Below are positions 5,127-22,916 of a stretch of DNA of 64,000 nt, one piece after another. The notes beneath the pieces are model-generated. The model ran no database searches, was not told where the DNA came from, and worked only from the letters and a program-made list of their open reading frames with translations. The translations under genes and the position numbers were made by a program. Location: the NCBI RefSeq assembly GCF_009735625.1, contig NZ_CP046244.1, positions 434,001-498,000 on the forward strand. Direction: 5' to 3'. The stretch comes from Moorella glycerini (lineage in GTDB: Bacteria > Bacillota > DSM-521 > Neomoorellales > Neomoorellaceae). Every line of letters begins with the position of its first letter. Position 1 is the stretch's first letter.

Positions 5127-5218
5127 CAGCAGCCACCTTAATTAATTTTTTACCTTTTTATTTTGGCAACCTCAGCTAATCTTATACCGCTGGACTAGCC
5201 GGCGGGAAAAGATAATTA

Positions 5219-5416
5219 TCACCCACCCACCAAAGGTTTGATAATTTTGAGCCTGTCACCAGGCTGCAAGGTATATATTTGATACTCTTGCTGCAAAAGT
5301 TTATGTTCATTGACCCACACAGCTACTTGCCCCGGTAATCCTATTTCCTTTAATATATCCATAACCGTGGAACCCGGTTTTACATTATATACTTTATTGT
5401 TAACAATTATTTCCAT
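5219..5416 (-). CDS. MoaD/ThiS-family small sulfur-carrier-like protein
   Basis: The 65-residue ubiquitin-fold protein ends in the Gly-Gly tail (KPLVGG) required for thiocarboxylation in MoaD and ThiS. Its start overlaps the end of the AOR gene by 10 bp, so the two were translationally coupled. MoaD-like genes next to AOR genes usually serve the tungsten/molybdenum pterin cofactor of that enzyme. Because the AOR here is broken, this gene may now be idle. Confidence 0.8.
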   Translation of the reverse strand: MEIIVNNKVYNVKPGSTVMDILKEIGLPGQVAVWVNEHKLLQQEYQIYTLQPGDRLKIIKPLVGG

Positions 5417-7429
5417 GCTTGCCTCCCCTCTGGTAACAGCCAGCCCAGGGACAACTCTTGTAATTTTGCTGCCGTCAGGTTACCGCTGACTGGGTCCCAC
5501 CCAGCCAGACGATAGTACTGATCCAGAGCTTCTTTGAACTTTTCCTTATTGATACTTATTCCCATGGAGGGGCCATCCGGCATTGGTGCAAAGAAACGTT
5601 GCGGCAGTCCATCTTGTTCCTTGCCAAAACCTTCCCGGGCATTAAAGTACCTCATCATGTTCAAACGTCTTTCGCCGGTTTGCATTAATTCAGTTAAGGA
5701 AGTTTCCCAGCCAAGCCCGCTACGGCAAAGCGTAAGTAAGTCTTCTGGGCCATATAGCTGCCAGGAAGGTCCCCAGGCAAACTGGTAGAGGCAAAGTATA
5801 TCTGTAATTGAATAAAAACATTGAGTTAGAAAAGCAAAACGTACTTTTTCAGCATCTAAGTCCCAGGAATTATCATAACTCTGCCAGGCCCCGATTTGAG
5901 CTAAACGTTGGGCTTCAACGCTATCCGGAGGTAAAGTTAATACCGGATCATGTTCACTCGATTGATGATCAGCCCCGAAGGGATTAACTGCATAAATTAT
6001 GCCGACTGCCGGTTTAAATTGAGGCATATGGGCTGGAATTTCTGACCCTTTTACTGCCATTACCAAATCAGCCGCCCCTTTACCAATTCTTTGCGCGGCC
6101 CTGAAACTACCTTCAGCCAGCAAATAGCCAAGGCCTTCCCTGGTAGCAATCATGGTAACTAGTCCAGTTACTGCTTCGGCATTACCAAAACTCAAGTCAA
6201 GGCCTCCGGTATCCGCTTTGGTGAGCATCCCCTTTTCATAACATTCCATGGCAAAAGCAATGGTTGCCCCGCAAGATATAGTATCAAGCCCGTACATATT
6301 ACAGAGTTGATTGGCTATGGCAACTGGCTCCAGGCTGGTAACACCGCAATAGGAACCCATGGCAGCACAAGTTTCGTATTCCGGACCGCCGTAACGGCTA
6401 TCAACTTTACCCGGTATGGATACGACACGCTTGCATCTTATGGCACACGCGTAACAAGTATCCCTTTTTTTAAGAATAGTTGCGGCCATAGTCGCCCCAC
6501 TTAAGTTTTCAGCTCCTTCTGGAAACCAACCGGAAGTAAAATTCCTGGTAGGTAGAAAGCCCGCTTCATGATTACCGATTAAATCCCCGTCAGTACCATA
6601 CTGCCCCAAAGAACTCACGGTACTGTTGGCAGCTAACCTTTTGGTAATCCCCCGGGTTAGAGAGCGAAAGCCTTGGGGGTCTACTGGCACTCTTGGTTTA
6701 GCCTTACGTACCACAACGGCCTTCAGATTTTTAGAACCCATAACCGCCCCCAAACCAGTACGACCATTGGCGCGGCTGCATCGATTAAGTATACAGGCAA
6801 AACGCACCAGGTTTTCCCTAGCGGGGCCAATCTGCGCAATCTCAATATTTTTACTGCCTAATTCATTTTAACATAGCCATTTGAACTGTTCCTTCCCCCT
6901 GATGTTCCTTTAAGCAGCTAGCAGCATAAGCGCTAACACCTGGCAAGAAATCTTTCATGGACCCTTCAATCTCAAAATAACTATCGCCAATTATAGATAA
7001 TGCTTTTACTCTCTTTAACCGCATTTGCTCAGCCAGGTCCCTTTGTAAAAATTCTTTGTTGCTATCATCATTATCTCCTCCAGCTAGAACAGTAAGGACC
7101 TCGGGTTTAATCTCCCTTATTTTTGCTTCCACTTCTAACGCCGTATTTAACTTTAATCCGGGAATTTCTTTGATATCAACTAGCCGGCCGGACACGGCTA
7201 CCCAGACTGGAAAAGCAGCCTCACCTGTAAGTACTAAACCATCATAACCCGCCAGTTTTATCATGCGGCTACGTGACCATATACCAGGTCACAATGTAAG
7301 CCGTTTTCAGAAGCTACGAGCACTACTGCTGGGGCACTACCCGGGATGGGAGTACCCGCCAGGGGGCCTGCCATAATTAACAGGGGCTTATCTAACAAAC
7401 AACCACTTTGAATATCTTCTACTAAATAT
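5407..7429 (-). pseudogene. Aldehyde ferredoxin oxidoreductase (AOR family), 3' part of a split gene
   Basis: This is the large C-terminal part of a tungsten-pterin AOR. The visible iron-sulfur motif is CYACAIRCKR, and other AOR features are LVRFACILNRCSRANGR, GLGAVMGSKNLKA and AGYDGLVLTGEA. It is broken in three ways. First, the N-terminus is missing because IS1380 copy 1 abuts at 7430; the missing 5' part lies at 20444-20568 on the other strand. Second, the frame shifts near 7262, where GHVAA runs to a stop while the next frame gives MIKLAGYD. Third, it shifts again in an A-run near 6863, after MAMLK. The two frameshifts could be sequencing errors; the IS break cannot. AOR oxidises aldehydes to acids with ferredoxin. 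The MoaD-like gene overlaps its 3' end. Confidence 0.9.
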
Positions 7430-9124
7430 CCTGAATCCGTGATAATAACAACTGGGTAGAACTCGCACTAACAGTAAATGGTATTAACAGTTATATTTAA
7501 CATCTGCTGATACATTGAATTGGGTCTAAAGTTGATTATGTGGACGAAGGCTATTTACTCTTACCTTGGGTCCCCTGGATAAGGGAATAACAAAGTAGAC
7601 CTCTCGTCCTAAGAGGCTTGGAGCCTGCTTATACAGCTAACTGGAGCTAGAAGTTCTGTATTAAGCCAACGCTTTATATAGGTACCGGAAAGCTGGATAC
7701 CACGGGCTGTGCTGCCCAAATCGTAATTTGACCTGCCGGGCGTGGTGAACCAGCCGGGACGCTATGGTAATCAGGTTTTGTATAACGGTACGCAGCCGCC
7801 GGCGTTGAGCTTTCTTATTGCGCAGCGGTACCTCCTTTAGCGGGAGGCTAAACTGCCCCAGAAGCCTTAGAATGTTGTAGGCGAAAACACCCAGGTGTAG
7901 CACCAGGTCATTGGTGGCAAACTTGCCGCTGGGCAGCCGTTCCAGGTCTAAATCGTTTTTGATTTCACTGTGGAATTGCTCACTGGTGCCGTGGTCGTGG
8001 TAGAGGGTAATGATATCCTCCACCGGGTCGGGTAAAGTGGTCCAGTAGGTTTCGACCTCAATTTCCGGGACCAGGAGAAGCTGGCCGTTTCGTAATATCG
8101 TCCGCTCGGTGACCTTATACACCAGACGGACAGGGGTGTCAGCACCCTCGATTTTCACCATCTGGTGCCCCCGATAGACGGTTTTTCCCTCCCGTTCTAG
8201 GGTGGCGGTACCATTTTCCTTGGCAATGGCCAGCCAGGCCTCCGGCGTTTCCTTGCGCAGGTTACGCTTAATGATAAAATCGGCTTTGATTTCCGGGTCC
8301 AAACAGACCTGGAGATTATCCTGGCTGTCATTACCGCCATCCATCCGTACTAAAAGTGGCAGCGAAGTGATAGCGCGAGCAAAGGTTAGAGCTTGTCGCA
8401 GGAACTCCGGCGTCCCTTTTTGGCAATGCTGTTTCCCGGCCCGCAGTTCGGTATGGACGCAGTAGCCTTCCCTACCGAGGTAGGCGAAGATAGGCGCATA
8501 ACCGTCGTAGCCCTTATAGGTCCTGGAAACACCCTCTTTCTTGGAATTTGAATTATCAAAGGGAGTAACATCAATATCCAAAGGGACATATTGGCGCTTT
8601 AGTTCCCTGGAACCCAGGGTAACAGGAGTTACCGGTGCCTTAAGTTTCTTAAGGAACCTGGCCGTTTCCTCGAGGATAATCTCCTGGTAGGGTACACTAT
8701 GAGCTATCATATCCAGGCGCTGGCGCAGGGTAGGGCTTGAAGGCACATCCTGAATACCCAGCGCCGCAGCGAAGAAGGGGTCATCCCGAAAAAGCTCAAT
8801 ATGGTCAAAATCACTGCGACCCTGGCAAAGCAGGCCCACGTAAGAGGTGATAACATCCCCGTGAGAAATATCCGGAGAAGAAACACCAGGTATCCGGGTC
8901 TTATTTAGCCTGAGTTTCAGAGCAGTATGATCAATGATTTCCCCCACCAGAGCCAGTCCGGCAACGGGGGTAAGGTGTTCATCAGACTGTTCAATGATGA
9001 ATTTCATGGCCGCACCTCGCAGGTGAACATGGATTCGTTTGCCATCCAGCCTATTATACCTTATTTTTCGCGAGGTTTTGAGCCATATCCAGATATTTTG
9101 TTATTGGGTTGTCACGGATTCAGG
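7430..9124 (-). mobile_element. IS1380-family element, copy 1
   Basis: The element is 1,695 bp with ends CCTGAATCCGTGA...TCACGGATTCAGG, in the opposite orientation to copies 2-4. Flanks differ on the two sides (AAATAT at left, TTATA at right), so there is no target duplication at this copy. The left flank matches the complement of copy 2's left flank, and the right flank matches the complement of copy 2's right flank, which shows recombination between copies. Confidence 0.92.
7661..9007 (-). CDS. IS1380-family transposase (copy 1)
   Basis: The 448-residue DDE transposase starts MKFIIEQSDEHLTPVAGLAL. It has YVPLDIDVTPFDNS (first Asp region), VRMDGGNDSQDN (second) and YHDHGTSEQFHSEIKNDLDL, the Y-(2)-R/H-(3)-E-(6)-K-like region with the catalytic Glu. 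The protein is identical to those of the other three copies. A TATAAT-like box lies about 40 bp upstream of the ATG, inside the element. Confidence 0.92.
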   Translation of the reverse strand: MKFIIEQSDEHLTPVAGLALVGEIIDHTALKLRLNKTRIPGVSSPDISHGDVITSYVGLLCQGRSDFDHIELFRDDPFFAAALGIQDVPSSPTLRQRLDMIAHSVPYQEIILEETARFLKKLKAPVTPVTLGSRELKRQYVPLDIDVTPFDNSNSKKEGVSRTYKGYDGYAPIFAYLGREGYCVHTELRAGKQHCQKGTPEFLRQALTFARAITSLPLLVRMDGGNDSQDNLQVCLDPEIKADFIIKRNLRKETPEAWLAIAKENGTATLEREGKTVYRGHQMVKIEGADTPVRLVYKVTERTILRNGQLLLVPEIEVETYWTTLPDPVEDIITLYHDHGTSEQFHSEIKNDLDLERLPSGKFATNDLVLHLGVFAYNILRLLGQFSLPLKEVPLRNKKAQRRRLRTVIQNLITIASRLVHHARQVKLRFGQHSPWYPAFRYLYKALA

Positions 9125-9169
9125 TTATAGATAAACTGGAAGGCAAAAATAAATGTTCTGGCCATAGTA

Positions 9170-9211
9170 GCCAGGGGCCCCGGAGATTGACCCGGGGCCC
9201 CTGGCTTTATT
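9170..9211 (+). terminator. Terminator hairpin used as group II intron target
   Basis: A perfect 14-bp stem (9170-9183 with 9192-9205) is followed by CTTTATT and then, beyond the intron, TTTTTT at 11100-11105. Its T-tract has been split by the intron. In the order before inversion it lay downstream of the DUF1638 gene now at 22278-22916. Confidence 0.8.
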
Positions 9212-11099
9212 GTGCGCCCGGCATGGGCGTTAACTTAGTGGTGAAAGTCCACTGCAGGCGAGGCAGCACAGTCTGTTAGCCAAAGGCAAGGGTGTCCATC
9301 GCGAGGTGGAATCTGAAGGAAGCCGGAGGCAAAGCCACGGCCCGATGAACAAGAACCCCATACGAGGCTAGACCGTCCGGATGAGCTGGCAATACACAGC
9401 GAAATCCCAGGCTGCCAAGGGGCGGTAGAGTAGATGGGGCGGGCGCGGGGTGAAGGTTAACGCTCTTACCCGGGGAGACCTGCCGGGTAGGCCAGGGAAA
9501 GCTGGTAACCCGTGTCGAAAGGCACGACTGAACCGGCAGGAGTCAGCAGAAGGCATAGTACCCTGGGGGTCATGAACCGCAGGGGAAGGCCCGAACATCA
9601 AGTCAGAGGTGAAACGATGCGTTCGCGAGAAGGACGAAGACAGCAGAAAACCCCGGAAGGGGCCTGCCCACGGGAGGAAGTGGTGAAGCCGCAGGGGACC
9701 GCGGGAGGGCCGAGTTCTTCTCCGGCACAAAGCGGAACGTCACCTCGCAGAGGCCAAGGTAGCGGCCTGATGGAACAGGTGGTGGCCAGGAGTAACATGC
9801 TGGCCGCTCTAAAGCGTGTAGAGCGGAACGGAGGCGCGCCCGGCGTAGATGGCATCCCGACCGAACGGCTTCGGGACCAAATTCGTACCGAATGGCCGCG
9901 CATCCGGGAAGAACTGCTCGCAGGAACCTACAGACCGAAGCCCGTGCGCCGGGTCGAAATCCCGAAACCCGGAGGAGGCAAACGGCTGCTAGGGATACCC
10001 ACCGTAATGGACCGCCTGATCCAGCAGGCGCTCCTGCAAGTATTGACGCCCATTTTTGACCCGCAGTTCTCAGAAAACAGTTTCGGGTTCCGACCCGGAA
10101 GGAGAGCCCATGACGCGGTAAAGAAGGCGCGACAATACGTAGAAGAAGGATACGAATGGGCGGTGGACCTGGACATCGAGAAATATTTTGACCGGGTAAA
10201 CCACGACATACTCATGGCCCGGGTGGCCCGGAAAGTAACGGATAAGAGGGTACTTACCCTTATCCGCCGCTATCTTACCGCAGGCGTCATGGTGAAGGGA
10301 GTGGTCATGGAGACGGCAGAAGGGACGCCCCAGGGCGGACCCTTAAGCCCGCTTTTGGCCAACATCCTCCTGGACGACCTGGACAAAGAGCTGGAAAAGA
10401 GGGGCCACAAGTTCGTCCGTTACGCCGATGACTGCAACATCTACGTCAAAAGCAAACGGGCGGGAGAAAGGGTCATGGCCAGTATCCGCAACTTCCTGCA
10501 GGAGCGGTTAAAGCTCAAGATTAACGAGCAGAAGAGCGCGGTAGACCGGCCGTGGAAACTAAAATTCCTGGGGTTTAGCATGTACAAAGCCAAAGCCGGA
10601 GAAATCCTTATCCGTCTAGCGCCGCAAACCATTGAACGGGTTAAGATGAAAATTCGGGAGATAACTTCCCGGAATAAGCCCGTAAGCATGGAAGAGCGCA
10701 TAGAGCGGCTAAACGCCTACCTGGGTGGATGGATAGGATACTTCGCCCTGGCCGACACGCCCAGCACTTTCAGGAACTTGGAAGGCTGGATGCGGAGAAG
10801 GCTACGCATGTGCCTCTGGAAGCAGTGGAAGCGAGTACGGACCAGGTACCGCGAGCTACGCGCATTGGGATTGCCGGATTGGGTGGTGCATAATTTCGCC
10901 AACGCCCGCAAAGGGCCGTGGCGAATGGCCCATGGGCCAATGAATAGAGCCCTGGGTAATGCCTACTGGCAGTCCCAGGGCCTGATGAGCTTAACCGAAC
11001 GTTATCAAAGTCTTCGTCAAGCTTGGTGAACCGCCGGATGCGGACCCGCATGTCCGGTGGTGTGAGAGGACGGGGGCTAGCCGCCCCCTCCTACTCGAT
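9212..11099 (+). mobile_element. Group II intron, bacterial class C-like
   Basis: The 5' end GTGCGCCCGGCATGGGCG is the standard group II start. The 3' end has a domain V-like hairpin (11029-11060 region) and finishes CTACTCGAT. It encodes one reverse transcriptase. Insertion directly behind a terminator stem is the known habit of class C introns. The 5' leader (about 400 bp) is structured RNA. Confidence 0.88.
9617..11029 (+). CDS. ltrA: Group II intron reverse transcriptase/maturase
   Basis: The roughly 470-residue protein has reverse transcriptase blocks including RRVEIPKPGGGKRLLGIPTV, SFGFRPGRRAHDAV, TPQGGPLSPLLANILLDDLD and the catalytic FVRYADDCNIYV. A maturase (X) domain follows. There is no HNH endonuclease domain at the C-terminus, as usual for class C introns. 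The ATG at 9617 is preferred because AGAGGTG lies just upstream; the frame is open further 5' into intron RNA. It reverse-transcribes and helps splice its own intron. Confidence 0.93.
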   Translation: MRSREGRRQQKTPEGACPREEVVKPQGTAGGPSSSPAQSGTSPRRGQGSGLMEQVVARSNMLAALKRVERNGGAPGVDGIPTERLRDQIRTEWPRIREELLAGTYRPKPVRRVEIPKPGGGKRLLGIPTVMDRLIQQALLQVLTPIFDPQFSENSFGFRPGRRAHDAVKKARQYVEEGYEWAVDLDIEKYFDRVNHDILMARVARKVTDKRVLTLIRRYLTAGVMVKGVVMETAEGTPQGGPLSPLLANILLDDLDKELEKRGHKFVRYADDCNIYVKSKRAGERVMASIRNFLQERLKLKINEQKSAVDRPWKLKFLGFSMYKAKAGEILIRLAPQTIERVKMKIREITSRNKPVSMEERIERLNAYLGGWIGYFALADTPSTFRNLEGWMRRRLRMCLWKQWKRVRTRYRELRALGLPDWVVHNFANARKGPWRMAHGPMNRALGNAYWQSQGLMSLTERYQSLRQAW

Positions 11100-11107
11100 T
11101 TTTTCCG

Positions 11108-12949
11108 CTAGCGCACCGCTATCCGGTATTCCCGCAGCCAGGTGTCGGCCTGGGCAAGATAAGCGAAGAGCTGGGGGGCGCTCATGAGCTGGCCGAACCA
11201 GGGCAGGTCGAAGGGCTCTTCCTTCTCCGCCAGGGCACGGATGGCCGGCACGTCGATGAAGGGCAGCAGGGGCGAACCGGGATCGTTCAAAATCTCCAAC
11301 AGCCAGGTGCGGACGGCCTCCAGGTAGGCCGGGTTGTAGGTCTTGGGGTAGGGGCTCTTGCGCCGCTGCAGGACTTCCTCCGGTAGCACCCCGCGTAAAG
11401 CCCGGCGCAAGATGCCCTTTTCCATCTGGCCCCAGAATTTCATCTCCCAGGGGATATTCCAGACATAATCTACCAGTCGGTGATCGCAGTAGGGCACCCG
11501 GACCTCCAGCCCCACGGCCATGCTCATGCGGTCCTTGCGGTCCAGGAGTACCGGCATAAAGCGGGTCAGGGTAAGGTAGGAAAATTCTCGCAGGCGGGCG
11601 CTCCGGGGGTCCTCCCCTGGCAGGCGGGGTACTTCCTCCAGGGCTTCCCGGTAGCGCCTGGCCACATATTCCTCCGGACGGACCAGGGCTTTAAGATCGG
11701 GAGAAAGGAGGCGGATCCTCTCGTGGCCGGCCCGGGTCCAGGGGAAGGTAGCCAGGGCCATGGCCTTTTCACTTCTAAACCACGGGTAACCGCCGAAGAC
11801 CTCGTCGGCAGCCTCGCCGGACAGGGCAACGGTGGCTTCTTTTTTAATTTCCCGGCTAAAGAGGTACAGGGAAGAGTCCACATCAGCCATTCCCGGCAGG
11901 TCCCGGGCGCGCATGGCCGTAGTCAGAGAGGTTACCAGTTCGGGGGTGTCGATAAAGACGTAGTGGTGCCTGGTACCCAGGTAGCGGGAAACGAGTTCTA
12001 CCCAGGGGGCATCGCTGTTGGGCTGGAAATGGCTGGGCCGGAAATAACGGTCATTGTCGACGTAGTCTACCGACCAGGTATGGATGGGCCCAAGACCCCG
12101 CTCCTGAAAGGCCCGGGCGGCAAAGGCGGTAACGGCGCTGGAATCCAGCCCCCCGGAGAGCAGGGTGCAGACGGGCACATCGGCTACCAGCTGCCGCTCT
12201 ACCGTATCCTGCAAAAGCTGGCGGACTTTAGCGGTAGTGGTTTCCAGGTCATCCGGGTGGGGCCGGCTTACCAGGGCCCAGTACTGGTGCTGGCGGATGC
12301 CCTGGCGGTCATAAATCAGGTAGTAGCCGGGTTTCAATTCGGCTATGTTGCGGAATACCCCGTGTCCCGGCGTGCGGGCCGGTCCCAGGACAAAAACTTC
12401 GGCCAGCCCTTCGGCGTCCACCTCCGCTTCCACTGCCGGGTGCGCCAGCAGGGCTTTCAATTCCGAACCAAAGAGGAAGGCACTGCCCCTTTGCGTATAA
12501 AAGAGGGGTTTGACGCCCAGGCGGTCCCGGGCCAGGAAAAGGCTTTGCCTGGCCTCATCCCAGATGGCAAAGGCAAAAATACCATTAAAACGCTCGACGC
12601 AGGCTGGCCCCCATTCCATATAGGCCGCCAGCAGTGCTTCCGTATCCGAGTGTCCCTGGAAGGTATAACCATGGCTTTTGAGCTCCCGGTGCAGGTCGGG
12701 TGTGTTGTACAGCTCACCGTTATAGGATATGACAAAGGTCTGGTTGCCGCGGTGGCGTACCATGGGCTGGCCGCCGCCGGCAGGATCAACGACAATCAGG
12801 CGGCGATGGCCCAGGGCGGCCCGGGGGGAAAGCCACACCCCGGAGGCATCCGGCCCGCGGCAGGCCAGGGTGGCTGTCATGGCCTCCAGGACAGGCTGTT
12901 GCCGGCTTAGATCCACCTCCCAGTCCACCCAGCCGGTGATGCCACACAT
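11108..12949 (-). CDS. asnB: Asparagine synthase (glutamine-hydrolysing)
   Basis: The 613-residue protein starts MCGITGWVDW. Cys2 is the glutaminase nucleophile, which fixes this start even though the frame is open 33 codons further upstream; GGGGAGGG precedes it. The N-terminal class II amidotransferase domain (to about 210) is followed by the ATP-pyrophosphatase synthetase domain with LLSGGLDSSAV. It makes asparagine from aspartate, ATP and glutamine, although AsnB-like proteins in polysaccharide clusters may amidate other targets. It lies upstream-adjacent to glgA in the same direction, with a group II intron just past its stop. No damage is seen. Confidence 0.9.
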   Translation of the reverse strand: MCGITGWVDWEVDLSRQQPVLEAMTATLACRGPDASGVWLSPRAALGHRRLIVVDPAGGGQPMVRHRGNQTFVISYNGELYNTPDLHRELKSHGYTFQGHSDTEALLAAYMEWGPACVERFNGIFAFAIWDEARQSLFLARDRLGVKPLFYTQRGSAFLFGSELKALLAHPAVEAEVDAEGLAEVFVLGPARTPGHGVFRNIAELKPGYYLIYDRQGIRQHQYWALVSRPHPDDLETTTAKVRQLLQDTVERQLVADVPVCTLLSGGLDSSAVTAFAARAFQERGLGPIHTWSVDYVDNDRYFRPSHFQPNSDAPWVELVSRYLGTRHHYVFIDTPELVTSLTTAMRARDLPGMADVDSSLYLFSREIKKEATVALSGEAADEVFGGYPWFRSEKAMALATFPWTRAGHERIRLLSPDLKALVRPEEYVARRYREALEEVPRLPGEDPRSARLREFSYLTLTRFMPVLLDRKDRMSMAVGLEVRVPYCDHRLVDYVWNIPWEMKFWGQMEKGILRRALRGVLPEEVLQRRKSPYPKTYNPAYLEAVRTWLLEILNDPGSPLLPFIDVPAIRALAEKEEPFDLPWFGQLMSAPQLFAYLAQADTWLREYRIAVR

Positions 12950-13179
12950 AAATAAATCCCTCCCCAGCAGGCTGTTAAAAACGCCCTTAAATTGAAACCC
13001 TTCCTCTGGACGCCGTTGCCCACCGGGGTTACGCCCTTGCAACCCCAAACGGGTTCCATGATGATCTTATGCAGGGAGGGGGAAAAAGTGCGGGAAAAAT
13101 ACCTGCCCGGGCTGGTCCCGGGCAGGCGGAACTGATATATCCCGGCGTTTCGCAACGTAAGCGCCGGTAACAGTTCCTT

Positions 13180-14643
13180 TTACCCCGCTTTAACCTGGGT
13201 AGCCATCCTCTTCTGGAGGGCTTCCCGGTACATATCTTCGTATTGACCGGCCGAGGCGTTCCAGGAAAAGTCGGCTGCCATGCCCCGCCGGACCAGATTA
13301 CGCCACTCCTCCGGCTCGTTCCGGTAAACGTGGAGGGCGCGATTAATGGTATCCAGGAGGGCCTGGGGCTGGTAATCGCGGAAGGAAAAGCCGTTACCGC
13401 TCCCCGGGTACTGGTGAAAATCCTTGATGGTATCCTCCAGGCCGCCCGTAGCCCGGACCACCGGTACGGTGCCGTAGCGCAGGCTGATCATCTGGCCCAG
13501 GCCGCAGGGTTCAAAGCGGGAGGGCATGAGGAAGATATCGCAGCCGGCATAAATCCGCTGGGCGAGTACCGGGTCAAAGCCGATTTTGACGGCCATTTTA
13601 TCCCGGTATTTGACCTTGTAACGGGAGAAAAGCTGCTGGTAATAATCCTCGCCGCTGCCCAGGAGGACGAACTGCACATCCTGCTGCAGCAGGGGGTCGA
13701 GAATGGCCGCCAGGAGATCCAGTCCCTTCTGGTTCACCAGGCGGGAAATGAGGCCCAGGAGGGGTCCATCCTTGACCGGCAATTCCATCTCCCTTTGCAG
13801 GGCCGCTTTGTTCTCCTTTTTCTTCTCCAGGTGCCCGGCGTCGTAATTGACGGCCAGGCGCGGGTCGGTGGCCGGGTTGAACTCCTGGTAGTCAATGCCG
13901 TTCAAAATTCCCCGTAGATCCGCGGCGCGTTTCCTCAGCAGGCCGTCCAGGCGTTCCCCGTATTCGGGAGTCTGGATTTCCAGGGCGTATTTCTTGCTGA
14001 CGGTGTTGATTAAATCAGCGTACAGGATCCCGGCCTTCATGAAACTGACCTGGCCGTAAAACTCCAGGCGCTCGGGGGTAAAAAATTCCTCGCCCAGGGC
14101 CATAATCTTCAAGGTGTGGCGGGGGAAGGTCCCCTGGTACTGGAGGTTATGGATGGTATAAATGGTTGCCGTTTGCCGGTAAAAGGGGTTATCCTCGTGC
14201 TTGACTTTGAGGAAAAGGGGGATGGGGCCCGTCTGCCAGTCATTGCAGTGGATAATATCCGGCTGGTATCCCAGCCAGGGCAGCATGGACAGGACGGCCT
14301 TGCAGAAAAAATTAAAACGGGCTGCGTCATCGGGATAGCAGTACATGCCGTCCCGGCAGAAGAACTTGTAGTTATCGATGAGGTAAACAGGTACGGGGTG
14401 ATCTCCTGCCAGCTGCGCCTGGCGGATAATGGCCGTTTCCAGGCTGCCATCCATTTCCACCGGCAGGTCGGTGAGGTAGTCGACATTCTTGACCTGGCGG
14501 TAACGGGGCATAGCCACCCGGACCTCGTGGCCCCGGGCGGCCAGGGCTTTGGGGAGGCTGCCGGCCACGTCGGCCAGGCCCCCCGTTTTGGCCAGGGGGG
14601 CTACTTCGGATGAAACCAGCAAAATCTTTAAGGGCTCGGTCAT
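13180..14643 (-). CDS. glgA: Glycogen synthase
   Basis: The 487-residue GT5 enzyme has the ADP-glucose-binding KTGGLADVAGSLPKAL motif at residues 18-33, YTIHNLQYQGTFPRHTL, and the C-terminal FEPCGLGQMISLRYGTVPVV with the conserved E/C region. It extends alpha-1,4-glucan from ADP-glucose in the cytosol. The ribosome site AGGAGGAAGG lies before the ATG. It follows galT and precedes asnB in the same direction; 133 bp with a hairpin separate it from galT. Confidence 0.95.
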   Translation of the reverse strand: MTEPLKILLVSSEVAPLAKTGGLADVAGSLPKALAARGHEVRVAMPRYRQVKNVDYLTDLPVEMDGSLETAIIRQAQLAGDHPVPVYLIDNYKFFCRDGMYCYPDDAARFNFFCKAVLSMLPWLGYQPDIIHCNDWQTGPIPLFLKVKHEDNPFYRQTATIYTIHNLQYQGTFPRHTLKIMALGEEFFTPERLEFYGQVSFMKAGILYADLINTVSKKYALEIQTPEYGERLDGLLRKRAADLRGILNGIDYQEFNPATDPRLAVNYDAGHLEKKKENKAALQREMELPVKDGPLLGLISRLVNQKGLDLLAAILDPLLQQDVQFVLLGSGEDYYQQLFSRYKVKYRDKMAVKIGFDPVLAQRIYAGCDIFLMPSRFEPCGLGQMISLRYGTVPVVRATGGLEDTIKDFHQYPGSGNGFSFRDYQPQALLDTINRALHVYRNEPEEWRNLVRRGMAADFSWNASAGQYEDMYREALQKRMATQVKAG

Positions 14644-14702
14644 TAGCCTTCCTCCTATATTTCGGAAGTCAGAGGCAGGAAGTACGAAGTCGGAATTCCC
14701 GT

Positions 14703-14725
14703 AGGAACTGGCTAGGCCAGTTCCT
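14703..14725. repeat. Perfect 10-bp-arm hairpin between galT and glgA
   Basis: AGGAACTGGC (14703-14712) and its complement (14716-14725) are separated by TAG. There is no T-run on either side, so a terminator is not shown; it may be an mRNA processing or stability hairpin. Confidence 0.5.
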
Positions 14726-14776
14726 GATTAAGTCTCCAGACTTCCATCATTTTCGTAGTTTACTTTATAGGGGGCG

Positions 14777-15811
14777 TTATACCCTACGGTTAGCTTCAGC
14801 CTGGCTCTCCTGATCCAGTTTAATTTCGTTCAGTGACTGGGCGGCGATTTCCGGTGGCGTGGGGTTAATGTACATATCCGTCCCCCATTCAAAACCGGCA
14901 ACAATGGTCAGCCTGGGCAGGAGTTCAAAATGCCAGTGGTAGATACTGTCCTCCTGGCGCAGGGGCGCTGTATGCAGGACCAGGTTAAATGGCGGGTCGT
15001 TAGCCGCCTTTTCCAACCGATCCAGTACGTCCTGGAGGATGGCGGCCAGTTGCTCCAGCTGCTCATCTTCGCAGGCGCCGAAACTGGCCTGGTGGCGCCG
15101 GGGCATGATCCACATTTCCATCGGGAAACGGGAGGCGAAGGGGCAGAAGGCCAGGAATTCTTTATTAAAGGCCACGACACGGGCCCCTGTTTCCAGCTCT
15201 GCTTCGATAAGGTCGCAGAAAAGACAGCTTTCTTTTTCCTGCCAGTAAGCTTTAAGCCTGGCCATTTCCCGGTTAACGGCTGCCGGCACCAGGGGTGTGG
15301 CAATGAGCTGGCTGTGGGGGTGTTCCAGGGAAGCCCCGGCGGTAGGGCCGTGGTTTTTAAAGAGCTGGATGTATTGGAGCCTTTTGTCCCGCTTCAGCTG
15401 CAGGTAACGCTGCCGCCAGGCCTTGAGAACCTGGACGGCATGCTCGGGAGCTAGAGCGGAGAAAAAGGTATCATGATCAGGCCCCTCGATGATAACCTCA
15501 TGCACACCGGTACCGGTCATGGTCTGGTAAATCCCTTTACTTTCCCTGCCCACCTCCCCGCTGGCCGTCAGGGCGGCATATTTGTTGGGTACCACCCGCA
15601 CCTGCCAGCCAGGGGTATCAGGTTCCGTGCTGGCGGCGCGGAAGGCCAGAACTTCCGGCGGTGTTTCCTTTTCGTGGCCGGGGCAAAAGGGGCAGTTGGC
15701 GTTGCCATTCTTTTCTTTATGAGGAGGCTTGAAGTCCGAAGGCCTTTTGGCCCGTTCGGTGGCAATGATTACCCAGCGCTGGCTCACCGGGTCCTGGCGT
15801 AATTCGGGCAT
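14777..15811 (-). CDS. galT: Galactose-1-phosphate uridylyltransferase
   Basis: The 344-residue HIT-superfamily enzyme has the active-site EHPHSQLIATPLV (HPHSQ, catalytic second His), the zinc-ligand-like CPFCPGH near residue 40 and CLFCDLI near 200. It exchanges UMP between UDP-glucose and galactose-1-phosphate; in this context it may act on ADP-glucose, as some homologues do. The ribosome site TTGGAGG is present. It leads the galT-glgA-asnB gene row. Confidence 0.92.
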   Translation of the reverse strand: MPELRQDPVSQRWVIIATERAKRPSDFKPPHKEKNGNANCPFCPGHEKETPPEVLAFRAASTEPDTPGWQVRVVPNKYAALTASGEVGRESKGIYQTMTGTGVHEVIIEGPDHDTFFSALAPEHAVQVLKAWRQRYLQLKRDKRLQYIQLFKNHGPTAGASLEHPHSQLIATPLVPAAVNREMARLKAYWQEKESCLFCDLIEAELETGARVVAFNKEFLAFCPFASRFPMEMWIMPRRHQASFGACEDEQLEQLAAILQDVLDRLEKAANDPPFNLVLHTAPLRQEDSIYHWHFELLPRLTIVAGFEWGTDMYINPTPPEIAAQSLNEIKLDQESQAEANRRV

Positions 15812-15866
15812 ACTGGAACCTCCAAATTAAGCAACTTGCTACTAGGTTTTATCTATCCGGGGCAAA

Positions 15867-16469
15867 TTATGCGGTATAAGATTGGCCGTAATCTATACCG
15901 GCGATCAGCCTGGCAAATTGTCGCATCCATTCTGGATTCCCACGCCAGGAGGCGGCAGAAACTAAATTCCCATCCACATACACATTAGATAAAGTTTCGT
16001 TAACTTCACCCCATATAGCTCCGGCGAGAAGAAGATCGGGTTTAATACCAGGATAACCTGTACATATTTTTCCTCTAAGTACACCGGCGGCTATTAAAAT
16101 TTGCGGCCCGTGGCAGGTAACGGCTACGGGCTTATTAGTTATAAAGAAATGCTGTACAATTTTTAGCACTCGCTCATTGAGGCGTAAATATTCAGGTGAA
16201 CGGCCACCGGGGATAACTAGTCCAATATAGTCCTGGGGATCGACTTTATCAAAGGTGGCAGTAAGAAGGAAATTGTGACCTGGCTTCTCGCTATAAGTTT
16301 GCTCTTTTTCAAAGTCATGAACAGCGGTTCGTACAGTTTCTCCAGCCCATTTATTAGGAGAAACACTGTGGACGGTATATCCCAACATAGTTAAGGCTTG
16401 AAAAGGAAAGATGGCTTCATAATCTTCCACATAATCGCCGACCAGCATGAGTATTTTCTTTCCAGGCAT
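15867..16469 (-). CDS. DJ-1/PfpI-family protein
   Basis: The 200-residue protein has the PfpI fold: KKILMLVGDYVEDYEAIFPF at the start and the nucleophile-elbow Cys in AVTCHGPQILIAAGV near residue 118. Family members are deglycases, amidases or chaperones; which applies here is unclear. GGGGAGGGA precedes the ATG. It is divergent from the decayed flavin-reductase operon, and before inversion it was on the strand opposite AOR. Confidence 0.85.
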   Translation of the reverse strand: MPGKKILMLVGDYVEDYEAIFPFQALTMLGYTVHSVSPNKWAGETVRTAVHDFEKEQTYSEKPGHNFLLTATFDKVDPQDYIGLVIPGGRSPEYLRLNERVLKIVQHFFITNKPVAVTCHGPQILIAAGVLRGKICTGYPGIKPDLLLAGAIWGEVNETLSNVYVDGNLVSAASWRGNPEWMRQFARLIAGIDYGQSYTA

Positions 16470-16561
16470 TTTTATCCCTCCCCTTCATTCTATTCCACCG
16501 AGTTATGAGGTGATAGCCCGGGGAGGCAAGATAATGATTATTCAGGAAGGGGATTTAAAAA

Positions 16562-16783
16562 ATTAATATTCGTTATCAGTTATTATCACCTGATTTAAAA
16601 GGGCCGGTGGAATTTATGTTGATTACGGCGCCGCCCAAGGCCTCCACGGGCGAGGAAAATTTCGTCCATGATGGTTATGAATATGGTTTTATTTTGAAAG
16701 GCTCAATGCAAATCTGTATTAATGATACTGAAATTTATCTTTTACACCAAGGCGATGCTATCTTTTTTAGCAGTGGTATTTGA
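16562..16783 (+). pseudogene. Cupin domain remnant of an XRE-cupin-type regulator
   Basis: The open frame RYQLLSPDLKGPVEFMLI, then ENFVHDGYEYGFILKGSMQI and GDAIFFSSGI, ends at a TGA. This resembles the C-terminal sensor domain of XRE-cupin transcription factors, cut off before its usual last strands and lacking the DNA-binding domain. The stop overlaps the start region of the next, also damaged, reading frame, suggesting a deletion fused the two. Confidence 0.6.
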
Positions 16784-17442
16784 TGAAAAAGACAAGGTCA
16801 AATTAACAAAAGGATTAGATTTTATTCTTTTACCGCCCGGTGGTATTGGTAACCTGTTTAGACGATAATGATAAACCCAATATCATTACTCTAGCCTGGG
16901 CCACGCCGGTATCCCACCAACCTTTGATTGTGGCTATTGCTGTATCGCCTAAGAGATATTCCCATGACTTAATTAACCGGAGGCGGGAATTTGTGGTTAA
17001 TTTCCCGGATATCAGCCTGGCGGAAGGAGCCAACTGGTGTGGCCGCAAATCAGGGAAAAAATATGATAAATTCGCTGAAACCAAATGGACCGCCGTCCCG
17101 GGCAAGACAATCAAAACTCCCCATATAGCTGAGTGCTATGCCTATCTGGAATGCAAGGTAACTCAACAGGTTATTGCTGGGGATCATACGACTTTCTTCG
17201 GCGAAGTTGTGGATGCTTACGCGGTTGAGGAAGCTGTCAAGAAAGTAAAGCAAGGGGGACCGCCGGCCTATTACTTTGACCCTGCCAGAATTAAGACATT
17301 GCAGCACCTGGGAGGCGATATGTATGTAACTAATGAAGATAACTATGTTGAATTTGAAGTTAGTGGTGTTATTGATGTATATAAATTAAAAGCCCTAAGA
17401 GAGCCTGTTTTTTACTCCGGCCAGAGTAAAGGGCTCTCTTAG
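16773..17442 (+). pseudogene. Flavin reductase-like protein, probably frameshifted near its start
   Basis: From 16840 the frame encodes a near full-length FMN-binding flavin reductase-like protein: VVLVTCLDDNDKPNIITLAW, then FVVNFPDISLAEGANWCGRK and HLGGDMYVTNEDNYVEF. The expected N-terminus (DEKDKVKLTKGLDFILLP) is present just upstream in another frame, and one extra base near 16836 (CCGCCCGG) separates them. If that base is real, the gene is inactive or starts late at GTG 16840. Homologues use FMN for ferric or flavin reduction. It heads the decayed operon that once continued into MFS, cupin and AOR. Confidence 0.65.
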
Positions 17443-17479
17443 GCCACCCGTAAAATTATTATAACAAGTAATTTAAAAA

Positions 17480-18115
17480 ATGAAAACCGAAGCCCAGTCT
17501 TTTTCCAGCCGTCCTGAATTTGTTGCCTTTCATTAGAAAAGATTTGGGACTATCCCATGAAGTAATTGGTTTTGCCTCTTCCCTGTTTTTCCTGGCGTAT
17601 ACGGGTATGCAAATCCCAGCCGGTATAGCAGCAGATAAATGGGGACCCAAGATCGTTATGGGTGTATCTATTGTCGTGTTTACCTTCTTTAGTTTCCTGA
17701 CGGGGACCATTAATTCTCTAGCTCAATTTATTGCTGTGCGCCTTGGTCTCGGCCTGGGGGAAGGGCTACACTTTTCTCCCAGTATTCGTGCTATCGGCGA
17801 CTGGTTCCCGCCCCAGGAAAAAGGCCGGGCGACTGCCTTTTTCACTACTTCCTGGACGGTAGCTCCAGCCATTATCCCTGTTGTAACTGCTTTTATAGCG
17901 GCGGCCTGGGGTTGGCGGATGGTGTTTTATTTGTTGGCTATCCCCGGCATAGTGGGGATAATCTTCTCAGGCAGGGCAAGGGCAAAGCTGCACCTAGCGC
18001 AACCCCATTCTTGTATTTTGCCTTAATGGCTGTTATTGGCACTATACTTTCCCTTTCTTTAAATGAAAAGCCCATTGCTGCCGGGATGAGTAAAAATTCT
18101 TCTTTGGAGGGTTAA
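17480..18115 (+). pseudogene. MFS transporter, internally deleted
   Basis: An ATG at 17480 gives MKTEAQSFSSRPEF and then stops. The next frame continues with LPFIRKDLGLSHEVIGFASS and membrane segments to residue 140 (WGWRMVFYLLAIPGIVG). A third frame supplies the end (LSLSLNEKPIAAGM...SLEG). About one TM helix near the start and several in the middle are missing. It is a relic of an ACS-type anion:cation symporter. Its last codons hold the ribosome site of the following cupin gene. Confidence 0.75.
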
Positions 18116-18132
18116 ATAAATGCTGATTTATC

Positions 18133-20069
18133 CCCAAGTTCGACAGTTGCTAGGTGAATAATAAGCGCAACAGCTTGTCGCGCAAGGGTTTCAGGGTTCG
18201 GCTTTTGGGGCGCGTGTTACTAGGGACCCTTTCTGGCCTTTGTTTCGACCGCGATTATTTGCGGCGGTTCCTTTATCCCAAGGGTCTTGAAGATATGCTG
18301 CTGTGGCGGGGTTGTTTCCGTCCTTTGGAGTATCCTGCCCTCAGGACCAACAAATTCGCCCAGGTGCATGCGTTCCAGGGTCTGGCGGATGTTCCGCCAG
18401 CTATCCTGCACTTTCGTTTCAGCTACCCGGATTAGGAGCAGTCCCAGCCAGCACAGGAGGACATGGGCATGGATGCGGTCGCTCAGGCGATGATAAATAG
18501 GCCGCAGCTCTAAGGACTGTTTCATGGTACGGAAGGCGTCTTCTACTTCGAGAAGCTGCTTGTAGCCGAGGGCCACGTCTTCCGGGCTTAAAGTATCGTC
18601 CGAGGTCCGTAACAGGTATTTGCCGTCCAGCTTTTCTTCGGCTTTCACCTTGGCCATATCGATATACGGTTGCCCTTTCTTGTCGGTCTTGAGATAGCGG
18701 CCATAGGTGGGATGGGCGATAAGCTGGCAGCAGGCTTTGGTATGGGGTTCGCCTTTAAGGTCGCCGATGGCTTTTAGTTCTTCCTTGAGGCGGGTCAATA
18801 TTTTCTCCCGCTCAAGTCTGTCTTTTTCTGCTTCTTTGGGGTTGCGGACCAGGATATAGCGTACCCTTTTTTCACCGTCGCCGACGATAACTTCTTTGAC
18901 TTCAAGGTTATCTTTGACGGTTTTGTAGCGGCCCGGTCTGGTCAGGGCTTCTTCTACGGTTTCTTTGCCGCTGCGCATCTTTTCGCCGGCAATATAGTGG
19001 CCACCGGCACGCTGGAGGTAGCGAAGGTTATCTTCCGAAGCAAAGCCGCGGTCGACAACGGTGATGACCCGGCCCAGTTGCCAGCCCACCAGGTCCTTTT
19101 TGACTTGCTCGATTACCGCCATATCGGCGGTGTTCCCGGGCCAGACCCAGCAGCGTACTGGGAGGCCTTCCCTGGTGACCGCCAGGCCGATTACAGCCTG
19201 CGGTAAATCCGGCCGGTGGTCCTTGGAGTTGCCTTTACGCCGAAGGTGCTGCTTATGGTCCTCCGGATTATCCTCCTCTTCCACTTCAAAGTAGGTGGAG
19301 GTGGTATCGAAGTACAGGAGATCTACTTCCAGGTTAAAGAGGTGGGCCACGGCGAAGAAGATATCCTTTTGTATCTCTTCCGCAGCCTCCAGTAAGAAGT
19401 CCATGGCCCGGTAAAGGTGTTGCACCGGTACCTCCGGGAGGCCGGGAATGAAAACGTCGTGGCTGACCCAATCCTCGGTCTTAAGTTTACTGGCCGGGTG
19501 CAAAGCCCGGTTGGCTACCATGGCGAAGATGGCCCGTTCGACCGGATTCTGGAACTTACGTTTGGCCAGCAACCTGACTAAAACGTCGCTAATACCCAGC
19601 CGGTTCCACAGTTCGTTTAATACCCAGGCGCCGCCCATAGGCCGGCTGGAGACAAATTTCAGGGGAGTGCTGCCGTTTAACTCTCCTTGGGTGCGCAAAA
19701 CCTCTTCCGGTCCCAAAAAACGCGTAATACTCTTTACCAGGCGGACCAGGGCTTCCCGGTCTACATCCTCTTCGCGGCCGAAGTTGAATAGTACTTTGGC
19801 TTTCGGATAGCCGGCTTGGGGGTCCCAGACGTTGTGGGCAAGCTGGATATAACGGACAACAGAGCCGTCCTTGTTTTTGCGGGAAATAGTTCTTATGTAC
19901 ATGTCTATATTATAGCGCATGTACTACATAGCCATCAAGCTCTAATTCCGGAATCGTGTGCCTATGTGATTTTTGATTTTTGAGCTCTCCCAAGAGCGGG
20001 AAACGTTGATTTATAAGGTTTCTTCATCTGAAAAGCAGCCATTTTTGCCTAGCAACTGTCGAACTCGGG
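18133..20069 (-). mobile_element. IS1634-like element in the cupin gene
   Basis: The element is 1,937 bp with 22-bp terminal inverted repeats (CCC[A/G]AGTTCGACAGTTG then CTAGG; one mismatch). The 5-bp target repeat TTATC flanks it at 18128-18132 and 20070-20074. Confidence 0.88.
18220..19902 (-). CDS. IS1634-like transposase
   Basis: The roughly 560-residue DDE transposase begins MYIRTISRKNKDGSVVRY. It has the block VDLLYFDTTSTYFE (first Asp), the block GRVITVVDRGFASEDNL (second), and a C-terminal YKQLLEVEDAFRTMKQSL with the catalytic Glu region. The ATG at 19902 is preferred to one 18 bp upstream, because a TATAAT-like box lies between them. It is distinct from the 548-residue element at 31834-33719. 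Confidence 0.88.
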   Translation of the reverse strand: MYIRTISRKNKDGSVVRYIQLAHNVWDPQAGYPKAKVLFNFGREEDVDREALVRLVKSITRFLGPEEVLRTQGELNGSTPLKFVSSRPMGGAWVLNELWNRLGISDVLVRLLAKRKFQNPVERAIFAMVANRALHPASKLKTEDWVSHDVFIPGLPEVPVQHLYRAMDFLLEAAEEIQKDIFFAVAHLFNLEVDLLYFDTTSTYFEVEEEDNPEDHKQHLRRKGNSKDHRPDLPQAVIGLAVTREGLPVRCWVWPGNTADMAVIEQVKKDLVGWQLGRVITVVDRGFASEDNLRYLQRAGGHYIAGEKMRSGKETVEEALTRPGRYKTVKDNLEVKEVIVGDGEKRVRYILVRNPKEAEKDRLEREKILTRLKEELKAIGDLKGEPHTKACCQLIAHPTYGRYLKTDKKGQPYIDMAKVKAEEKLDGKYLLRTSDDTLSPEDVALGYKQLLEVEDAFRTMKQSLELRPIYHRLSDRIHAHVLLCWLGLLLIRVAETKVQDSWRNIRQTLERMHLGEFVGPEGRILQRTETTPPQQHIFKTLGIKEPPQIIAVETKARKGP

Positions 20070-20393
20070 TTATCCTGGAGAAATCAAAACTGACTGGGGA
20101 AAAGTAATAACATTTATTAAAAAAGAATTACCTGCTATGACCATGATCGAATGCGGTATCTTTGAATGTCAACCTGGTTCCAGCCTGGCAAGGCATGTTC
20201 ATGAAAATGGAGATGAGTATTGTTACCTGTTTGCAGGTCAAGGGATTTTTGAGATCGGCGGCCAGGAATATGAAGTAGAAGCAGGCCAGACAATTAAAAT
20301 TCCCAGAGGGGTAGAACATCGTTCATTTAATAATGGGGAACATACTTTTAGAAGTTTTTACGTAGTTTGCCCGTAAATAAATTTGAGATTATC

Positions 20394-20422
20394 TTAAGGC
20401 GTGGGCAATGCCCACGCCTTAA
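20394..20422 (+). promoter_or_regulatory. Perfect hairpin between cupin and AOR start
   Basis: Arms of 14 bp (20394-20407 with 20409-20422) sit in the short gap between the cupin stop and the AOR ribosome site. There is no T-run, so it is more likely an mRNA processing or stability hairpin than a terminator. Confidence 0.55.
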
Positions 20423-20443
20423 AATAACGAGAAGGAGATAGTC

Positions 20444-20568
20444 ATGGCGGGATTTCAGGAAAAGATGTTGCGCATTGATTTGCAGCGGAATAACGTTAGC
20501 GAAGAAAGATTACCACTTAAATGGTATTCCCAGTATCTTGGCGGTTTGGGTTTGGGTTTAAGATATTT
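20444..20568 (+). pseudogene. AOR, 5' part of the split gene
   Basis: ATG at 20444 with GAAGGAGAT upstream gives MAGFQEKMLRIDLQRNN, then EERLPLKWYSQYLGGLGLGL, the usual AOR N-terminus. IS1380 copy 2 enters after 20568. Joined to 7423 and below on the minus strand, with one ATATTT copy removed, the frame continues without break as GLGLRYLVEDIQSG. The fragments therefore belong to one gene of about 710 codons. Confidence 0.9.
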
Positions 20569-22263
20569 CCTGAATCCGTGACAACCCAATAACAAAATAT
20601 CTGGATATGGCTCAAAACCTCGCGAAAAATAAGGTATAATAGGCTGGATGGCAAACGAATCCATGTTCACCTGCGAGGTGCGGCCATGAAATTCATCATT
20701 GAACAGTCTGATGAACACCTTACCCCCGTTGCCGGACTGGCTCTGGTGGGGGAAATCATTGATCATACTGCTCTGAAACTCAGGCTAAATAAGACCCGGA
20801 TACCTGGTGTTTCTTCTCCGGATATTTCTCACGGGGATGTTATCACCTCTTACGTGGGCCTGCTTTGCCAGGGTCGCAGTGATTTTGACCATATTGAGCT
20901 TTTTCGGGATGACCCCTTCTTCGCTGCGGCGCTGGGTATTCAGGATGTGCCTTCAAGCCCTACCCTGCGCCAGCGCCTGGATATGATAGCTCATAGTGTA
21001 CCCTACCAGGAGATTATCCTCGAGGAAACGGCCAGGTTCCTTAAGAAACTTAAGGCACCGGTAACTCCTGTTACCCTGGGTTCCAGGGAACTAAAGCGCC
21101 AATATGTCCCTTTGGATATTGATGTTACTCCCTTTGATAATTCAAATTCCAAGAAAGAGGGTGTTTCCAGGACCTATAAGGGCTACGACGGTTATGCGCC
21201 TATCTTCGCCTACCTCGGTAGGGAAGGCTACTGCGTCCATACCGAACTGCGGGCCGGGAAACAGCATTGCCAAAAAGGGACGCCGGAGTTCCTGCGACAA
21301 GCTCTAACCTTTGCTCGCGCTATCACTTCGCTGCCACTTTTAGTACGGATGGATGGCGGTAATGACAGCCAGGATAATCTCCAGGTCTGTTTGGACCCGG
21401 AAATCAAAGCCGATTTTATCATTAAGCGTAACCTGCGCAAGGAAACGCCGGAGGCCTGGCTGGCCATTGCCAAGGAAAATGGTACCGCCACCCTAGAACG
21501 GGAGGGAAAAACCGTCTATCGGGGGCACCAGATGGTGAAAATCGAGGGTGCTGACACCCCTGTCCGTCTGGTGTATAAGGTCACCGAGCGGACGATATTA
21601 CGAAACGGCCAGCTTCTCCTGGTCCCGGAAATTGAGGTCGAAACCTACTGGACCACTTTACCCGACCCGGTGGAGGATATCATTACCCTCTACCACGACC
21701 ACGGCACCAGTGAGCAATTCCACAGTGAAATCAAAAACGATTTAGACCTGGAACGGCTGCCCAGCGGCAAGTTTGCCACCAATGACCTGGTGCTACACCT
21801 GGGTGTTTTCGCCTACAACATTCTAAGGCTTCTGGGGCAGTTTAGCCTCCCGCTAAAGGAGGTACCGCTGCGCAATAAGAAAGCTCAACGCCGGCGGCTG
21901 CGTACCGTTATACAAAACCTGATTACCATAGCGTCCCGGCTGGTTCACCACGCCCGGCAGGTCAAATTACGATTTGGGCAGCACAGCCCGTGGTATCCAG
22001 CTTTCCGGTACCTATATAAAGCGTTGGCTTAATACAGAACTTCTAGCTCCAGTTAGCTGTATAAGCAGGCTCCAAGCCTCTTAGGACGAGAGGTCTACTT
22101 TGTTATTCCCTTATCCAGGGGACCCAAGGTAAGAGTAAATAGCCTTCGTCCACATAATCAACTTTAGACCCAATTCAATGTATCAGCAGATGTTAAATAT
22201 AACTGTTAATACCATTTACTGTTAGTGCGAGTTCTACCCAGTTGTTATTATCACGGATTCAGG
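20569..22263 (+). mobile_element. IS1380-family element, copy 2
   Basis: The element is 1,695 bp and appears base-identical to copy 1 in inverse orientation. Flanks differ on the two sides: AGATATTT at left, TATAAGG at right. The right flank TATAA matches the complement of the right flank of copy 1 (9125-9129). Confidence 0.92.
20686..22032 (+). CDS. IS1380-family transposase (copy 2)
   Basis: This is an intact 448-residue DDE transposase, identical in sequence to copy 1. It and copy 1 are the inverted pair that bounds the 11.4-kb inversion. Confidence 0.92.
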   Translation: MKFIIEQSDEHLTPVAGLALVGEIIDHTALKLRLNKTRIPGVSSPDISHGDVITSYVGLLCQGRSDFDHIELFRDDPFFAAALGIQDVPSSPTLRQRLDMIAHSVPYQEIILEETARFLKKLKAPVTPVTLGSRELKRQYVPLDIDVTPFDNSNSKKEGVSRTYKGYDGYAPIFAYLGREGYCVHTELRAGKQHCQKGTPEFLRQALTFARAITSLPLLVRMDGGNDSQDNLQVCLDPEIKADFIIKRNLRKETPEAWLAIAKENGTATLEREGKTVYRGHQMVKIEGADTPVRLVYKVTERTILRNGQLLLVPEIEVETYWTTLPDPVEDIITLYHDHGTSEQFHSEIKNDLDLERLPSGKFATNDLVLHLGVFAYNILRLLGQFSLPLKEVPLRNKKAQRRRLRTVIQNLITIASRLVHHARQVKLRFGQHSPWYPAFRYLYKALA

Positions 22264-22277
22264 TATAAGGTATTTGG

Positions 22278-22916
22278 CTACCACCGTCTCGTCGTAAACG
22301 TTGTCCCGGGAGGCACCTGCAAGAACAGATGATCCCATGGCCCCCGCAACAGTTGCTGCAGGTAATCTTTATGTCCACGGGTGTTCTCAAGGTTTAACCC
22401 TAGTTTTTCCGCTGCCTCACGCGCCGCTTCCCTCGCCGCATCTTCCCTCCGCCGCCCAGTATTTATATACACCATTCGGCGGTAATGGCGGAAAAGGTGG
22501 CGCATCAATCTGCTACCTCGCTCTTCGCCATAGCGGGAAAGGCAACGTTCATACTCCCGTAGCAGGTTTTCTTCTCCGGCCAGCCAGCCGGCAGATAAAA
22601 AATAGGTGTCTGGCCCCCACTGCTGCCGGGCCTCCGGTGAGCCCAGTAATAAAGGTATGCAATCTTCGACCTTAGGGATAATTAGGGGCGCTGGTCCAGC
22701 CCGCAGGCCTTCCAGGGCTCCGCCGCAGAAACCGTAGCCCAGTAACACCAGTTCACTACCGCAGGTGCCATCGATGGCCTCCTGTAAAGCCTGCCGCAAC
22801 CGGTCCGGTGAGCGGTGCAACCCCTGATCCAGGAAGTGAAATTCATAACATTGCGGAGCTAAAGCTATAAGTTCTTCTTCCATAACTTTACAGGCAATAA
22901 CTCGATATCGACCCAT
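22278..22916 (-). CDS. DUF1638-family protein
   Basis: The 212-residue protein starts MGRYRVIACKVMEEELIALA and has LVLLGYGFCGGALEGLRAG and LIIPKVEDCIPLLLGS. It resembles DUF1638 proteins, which often neighbour corrinoid methyltransferase genes. The two conserved Cys regions could bind metal, but the function is unknown. It ends 14 bp from IS1380 copy 2, so the native 3' end is doubtful. Another frame (NVYDETVVAKYLI) stays open across the end and would continue over the reconstructed junction at 9125 with DKLEGKNK. A frameshift near 22305 is possible. Confidence 0.7.
   Translation of the reverse strand: MGRYRVIACKVMEEELIALAPQCYEFHFLDQGLHRSPDRLRQALQEAIDGTCGSELVLLGYGFCGGALEGLRAGPAPLIIPKVEDCIPLLLGSPEARQQWGPDTYFLSAGWLAGEENLLREYERCLSRYGEERGSRLMRHLFRHYRRMVYINTGRRREDAAREAAREAAEKLGLNLENTRGHKDYLQQLLRGPWDHLFLQVPPGTTFTTRRW

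Follow-up and report, generated by a model that had tools for sequence, protein, structure and literature searches.

The stretch of DNA analysed here (the window) comprises 64,000 nucleotides of Moorella glycerini, a heat-loving, acetate-making bacterium, and spans positions 434,001-498,000 of contig NZ_CP046244.1; all coordinates given below are those of the window. Two identical copies of an IS1380-family insertion sequence (IS) lie within it in opposite orientations, each abutting a piece of an interrupted gene of aldehyde ferredoxin oxidoreductase (AOR) type, and bound a segment that also carries three native genes and a group II intron. As judged from two independent lines of evidence, the flanks of the two copies and the gene order in related genomes, there is a high probability that the inversion of this segment is real.

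The two IS1380-family copies

7430-9124 (1695 bp), minus strand: IS1380-family element, copy 1, with its transposase gene at 7661-9007, minus strand
20569-22263, plus strand: IS1380-family element, copy 2, identical to copy 1 and in the opposite orientation, with its transposase gene at 20686-22032, plus strand
9125-20568: inverted segment of 11,444 bp, defined by the swapped flanks and by the reversed order in relatives

Copies 1 and 2 are inverted with respect to each other and differ at none of their 1695 positions. The element ends in CCTGAATCCGTGA...TCACGGATTCAGG, with terminal inverted repeats present, and its transposase scores far above the cut-off of the NCBIfam family NF033539 transpos_IS1380 (375 bits against 180, E 3e-112) and also matches Pfam DDE_Tnp_1_4, the IS1380-type DDE transposase. 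Sixteen full copies are found in the genome (3,559,463 bp in two contigs, the second of 50,075 bp), of which 15 are identical and one carries a single-base difference. In a plasmid collection, only distant IS1380 relatives were found (10 records at 60-80% identity), and none of the records held 80% of the element in one place. Two more copies are present in the window, at 25490-27184 and 27638-29332, both in one orientation and separated by only about 0.45 kb; each has a 5-bp duplication of its own.

The usual target duplication of the IS1380 family is 4-5 bp. At the target sites in this genome, a TTAA-like half site tends to stand on both sides, one base off the 5-6 bp duplication, with frequencies at the four positions of T 0.75, T 0.65, A 0.65 and A 0.62 (28 half sites from 14 insertions). 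TTAA is the target of piggyBac. PiggyBac has been paired with IS1380-like elements (PMC5718144). In passing the curated family cut-off, the transposase is like those of the IS1380 family, which includes ISEcp1 and ISPme1 (PMC9330008), and what the present set of copies shows beyond this is the 5-6 bp duplication and the TTAA-like flanking preference. With 16 near-identical copies, this preference could help to settle how IS1380 elements transpose.

Swapped target duplications

Copy 1 is flanked by ..CTAAATAT on the left and TTATAGATA.. on the right, and copy 2 by ..AAGATATTT on the left and TATAAGGTA.. on the right. Neither has a direct repeat of its own of 4-8 bp at its flanks. The flanks match crosswise: the 6 bp to the left of copy 1 are the reverse complement of the 6 bp to the left of copy 2, and the same holds for 5 bp on the right. 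Each short sequence can thus be read as half of a target duplication, the other half of which lies beside the other copy:

7424-7429: AAATAT, half of the target duplication of the insertion at the AOR site, with its partner at 20563-20568
20563-20568: ATATTT, reverse complement of 7424-7429 and partner half of the 6-bp duplication
9125-9129: TTATA, half of the duplication made at the second insertion, which is intergenic, with its partner at 22264-22268
22264-22268: TATAA, partner half of the 5-bp duplication

Among the full IS1380 copies of the genome, 13 of 16 are bounded by their own 5-6 bp duplication, and in a 14th (L008) the duplication TAATTA (6 bp) matches across a tandem 230-bp tail (L020). 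Copies 1 and 2 are the two left over, and each finds its match in the other. An inverted-type crosswise match was seen in one of the 120 pairs of copies, namely copies 1 and 2, with both flanks matching. A direct-type cross match was seen once in 240 ordered pairs (L005 and L007) and is taken as chance, since both of these copies have duplications of their own. When the flanks of the 13 simple copies were mispaired as a control, one of 468 trials gave a match, again that of L005 and L007, and for places drawn at random from the window the rate is 0.16%. A chance origin of the flank matches was rejected on the strength of the mispaired control. We likewise rejected the idea that such swaps occur often in this genome: of the 12 full copies of a second abundant IS family (IS1634 type), 11 carry their own duplication and none forms a swapped pair.

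An earlier note on this DNA, made from the sequence alone, had described an 11.4-kb inversion between inverted IS1380 copies, and its coordinates were right to the base. Its statements that the two copies lack target repeats of their own and that their flanks match crosswise were reproduced as well.

Two other copies in the genome stand out. The sole IS1634-type copy without a duplication (L114, G000:C1:1782471-1784409) has no swap partner among the other 11. At L008/L020 (G000:C1:1626092-1628016), a full IS1380 copy runs straight into the initial 230 bp of another, equally oriented copy, a composite that probably arose by insertion of one IS into another and a subsequent deletion via recombination between direct copies. 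If this history is right, IS copies have recombined elsewhere in the genome.

The inverted segment and gene order in relatives

The segment between the two copies contains the following native genes and one mobile element:

11108-13048, minus strand: asparagine synthase (glutamine-hydrolysing; asnB), native
13180-14643, minus strand: glycogen/starch synthase glgA, native
14777-15811, minus strand: galT-type uridylyltransferase, native
9206-11099, plus strand: group II intron with a reverse transcriptase/maturase (9512-11029), near copy 1

The surroundings of these genes were compared across ten genomes of the same genus. Eight loci (G001-G006, G009 and G010) were fetched and compared with the window by BLAST, a ninth genome (G007) was judged from search coordinates, and the tenth (G008, 58% complete) was not evaluable. 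As the earlier note had suggested might be checked in close genomes, the native genes of the interval were found in the un-inverted orientation, in all nine evaluable genomes. In each of the eight fetched loci, all or part of the left flank (roughly 0.4-5.2 kb) and the native genes have a relative orientation opposite to that in the window, the native markers used being galT and glgA and, in three genomes, also asnB. In six of these eight loci, the contig continues past the native genes to a marker from the right side of the window, in the orientation of the left flank. The marker corresponds to 22.3-22.9 kb in two of them (G002 and G003) and to parts of 60.6-63.9 kb in the other four (G004, G005, G006 and G009); none was counted in G001 and G010. 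Since the relatives have the un-inverted order, the order in the window is the derived one. No further strain of M. glycerini turned up; strain NMP, with 94% average nucleotide identity to the M. glycerini type strain, has been reported as a different species (PMC6978639).

The un-inverted order in the relatives is also what would be seen if the chromosome of M. glycerini were un-inverted and the assembler had chosen the wrong order at the identical inverted 1.7-kb copies. Such a wrong choice yields the same swapped flanks, and the published order was judged here from the consensus. We nevertheless consider an artefact of this kind very improbable. The assembly of M. glycerini DSM 11254T (CP046244/CP046245, two contigs including a 50-kb plasmid) was produced with Unicycler from MiSeq data and 162,721 Nanopore reads, whose mean length of 4,155 bp exceeds that of the IS (PMC6978639), and at 14 of the 16 copies the two flanks carry a matching duplication, in one case across a tail.

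A second possibility is that the culture contains both orientations, of which the assembly records the more frequent. Being identical, inverted and 11 kb apart, the copies can presumably still recombine back, and the sequence has no feature that would lock the orientation; against this, the single consensus gives no sign of a mixture and the relatives show the un-inverted order only. The relatives cannot decide the matter, however, because no full copy of the IS was found at either site in the eight loci compared. Such a mixture or reversible state, which would be compatible with recombination between resident copies, strikes us as doubtful.

In one of these loci, that of G003 (L066 12444-13154), a degenerate IS1380 remnant of the same type lies between the asnB side and a DUF1638 gene. 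Its neighbourhood is the same as that of copy 2, although its identity with that insertion is not shown. The group II intron starts a few bases past a strong hairpin followed by a T-run on the plus strand (region 9150-11106); in three relatives looked at, the intron is absent from the site and the hairpin is kept. The position is like that of group IIC introns, which insert behind terminators.

Origin of the inversion

Homologous recombination between two resident inverted IS copies is, in our view, very likely the explanation of the inversion. In the proposed model, two IS1380-family elements inserted independently and in opposite orientations, one into the acquired AOR-type gene, with a 6-bp duplication (AAATAT), and the other into the intergenic region beyond asnB, with a 5-bp duplication (TATAA). 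Homologous recombination between the identical 1.7-kb copies would then have flipped the 11,444 bp and exchanged half of each duplication, the crossover most likely being made by host RecA-type recombination and not by the transposase. Of the 63 inverted pairs that the genome contains, copies 1 and 2 lie nearest to each other (13.1 kb), as expected if recombination falls off with distance, and a second locus, the composite at L008/L020, looks like a recombination product of the element as well.

Inversion between inverted IS copies is a well-known, ordinary kind of genome rearrangement. In Bordetella pertussis, inversions bounded by inverted copies of IS481 have been attributed to homologous recombination (PMC4888882). 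The likeness to the present case lies in an inversion bounded by inverted copies of one IS, whereas here there is a single small event of 11.4 kb, in an acetogen and between IS1380-family copies, with duplications still readable on both sides. A description of this M. glycerini inversion was not found in the literature searched, and we make no wider claim. What the locus offers is a clean example, with every one of the 16 full copies assigned and the gene order of relatives bearing out the swap.

The same arrangement could also have been produced in one step, by a duplicative inversion in which one resident copy (either of the two) attacked the opposite strand about 11 kb away, making the second copy and the inversion together. 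In replicative intramolecular (trans) transposition, as described for IS6/IS26-type elements, each IS copy keeps one original and one target flank and the target repeat is inverted (PMC7986276), and the pattern of swapped flanks is the same as here (PMC7986276, Fig. 6 legend). The final layout and the exchange of flanks are thus shared with that system; the IS family differs, and most copies here (13 of 16) are simple insertions, each bounded by its own duplication, while the 14th has its duplication across the tail. The 13 simple insertions and the composite argue against replicative movement within the chromosome as the usual mode, as more deletions or inversions would otherwise be expected, and the inversion scar is confined to one of the 120 pairs. 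Two points speak for a single step: how IS1380 elements transpose is stated to be unknown, with signs of a replicative mode in the case of ISPme1 (PMC9330008), and copies 1 and 2 are close neighbours. A single step demands, however, an activity not established for this element. Overall, we regard the one-step event as unlikely. If it were true, the locus would be natural evidence that the IS1380 family can transpose replicatively within a chromosome.

Several points weigh against recombination between resident copies, or limit how firmly it can be held. Replicative intramolecular transposition leaves the same flanks (PMC7986276), so that the scar alone proves neither order nor mechanism; the earlier note, which had taken the scar to give the order of insertion and then inversion, was too strong in this respect. 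Swapped target duplications by themselves fix neither the order nor the mechanism of events, and this locus may serve as a warning. The same caution was raised for the 2z3 inversion of Drosophila, generated by the transposon Galileo, which resembles the present case in its two opposite copies, its exchanged duplications and the single target sequences in uninverted chromosomes (PMC2775673). There, chimeric copies proved ectopic recombination, whereas copies 1 and 2 are identical and the chimeric-copy test is inapplicable. The reconstructed empty sites fit the target preference moderately, ranking among the best 2.5% and 5.3% of places in the window, where the 14 sites from which the preference was built rank from below 0.1% to 19%. 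In the relatives, homology ends at 9162 (G001-G003) and restarts at 22289 (G002 and G003), and the intergenic insertion point is intact in none of those looked at. Finally, the inversion is read from the assembled consensus.

The interrupted AOR gene and the acquired island

20444-20568, plus strand: 5' fragment of the IS-split AOR gene, which reads into the IS and ends at a stop after a total of 45 codons
6863-7429, minus strand: continuation of the split AOR gene after re-inversion, with a frameshift near 7.27 kb and a stop at 6863
5407-6864, minus strand: AOR remainder lacking its own N-terminal part, either the rest of the same gene or a second, fused AOR
5178-5190, plus strand: AATCTTATACCGC, left boundary of the acquired AOR island
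15871-15883, minus strand: AATCTTATACCGC, right boundary of the AOR island, now inverted relative to the left copy

When 9125-20568 is re-inverted, the AOR front is restored: if 20444-20568 is linked to the complementary strand read from 7429 downwards and one of the two 6-bp repeats is dropped, the result is ...GLGLRYLVEDIQSG... in frame. The Pfam domain AFOR_N is unbroken across the join (residues 7-80 on profile positions 2-78, E 1.5e-13), and extends further once the next frame is appended (residues 7-154 on 2-155, E 1.3e-25). The in-frame rejoining claimed in the earlier note was thus reproduced, for the N-terminal part of AOR. Its description of a single AOR gene cut into two halves calls for caution: given the frameshift and a jump in identity, the downstream AOR may or may not belong to the same gene. 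Rejoining does not give a single intact frame with N- and C-terminal domains, given the frameshift near 7.27 kb and the stop at 6863. Residual base-calling errors could have contributed to the frameshift.

The two parts of the AOR region differ markedly in conservation. Against a set of eight homologues, identity is 62-76% for the back part (5407-6864) but only 26-31% for the rejoined front; among themselves, the eight share 57-78% over their first 165 residues. Against four other AORs (L119-L121 and L123), the front is 27-32% identical, and no close relative of it was found among the AORs compared. Conservation jumps abruptly at about 6.86 kb, after 82 unmatched residues. These last 82 residues before the stop at 6863 have no good match among 12 AORs (best E 0.019 and 0.036) and score -3.3 against a model built from the same 12. 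Front residues 1-145 and the back part together tile intact AORs almost end to end (167/168 on L076; 151/151 on L120), which fits one AOR gene with an odd middle stretch, while the jump in conservation is what a fusion of two AORs would give. Judging from these comparisons, we lean slightly towards a fusion. A further argument for it, that about 74 residues are represented twice on L120, was withdrawn, since the 82 residues concerned match no AOR well.

The flip broke no working gene, as its AOR end was already interrupted by the IS, its other end is intergenic and the three native genes are complete; its main effect is to separate the pieces of an already broken AOR gene.

Exactly two copies of the 13-mer AATCTTATACCGC exist in the genome, and they become direct repeats only once the segment is re-inverted, a further sign that the order in the window is derived. 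In the un-inverted order, they enclose an acquired AOR island of about 7 kb. The 13-mer stands whole at the empty site, between the same native flanks, in four of the eight fetched relatives, and a variant of it in one; in the other three, its last ten bases were not found. The right copy adjoins an imperfect inverted copy of itself.

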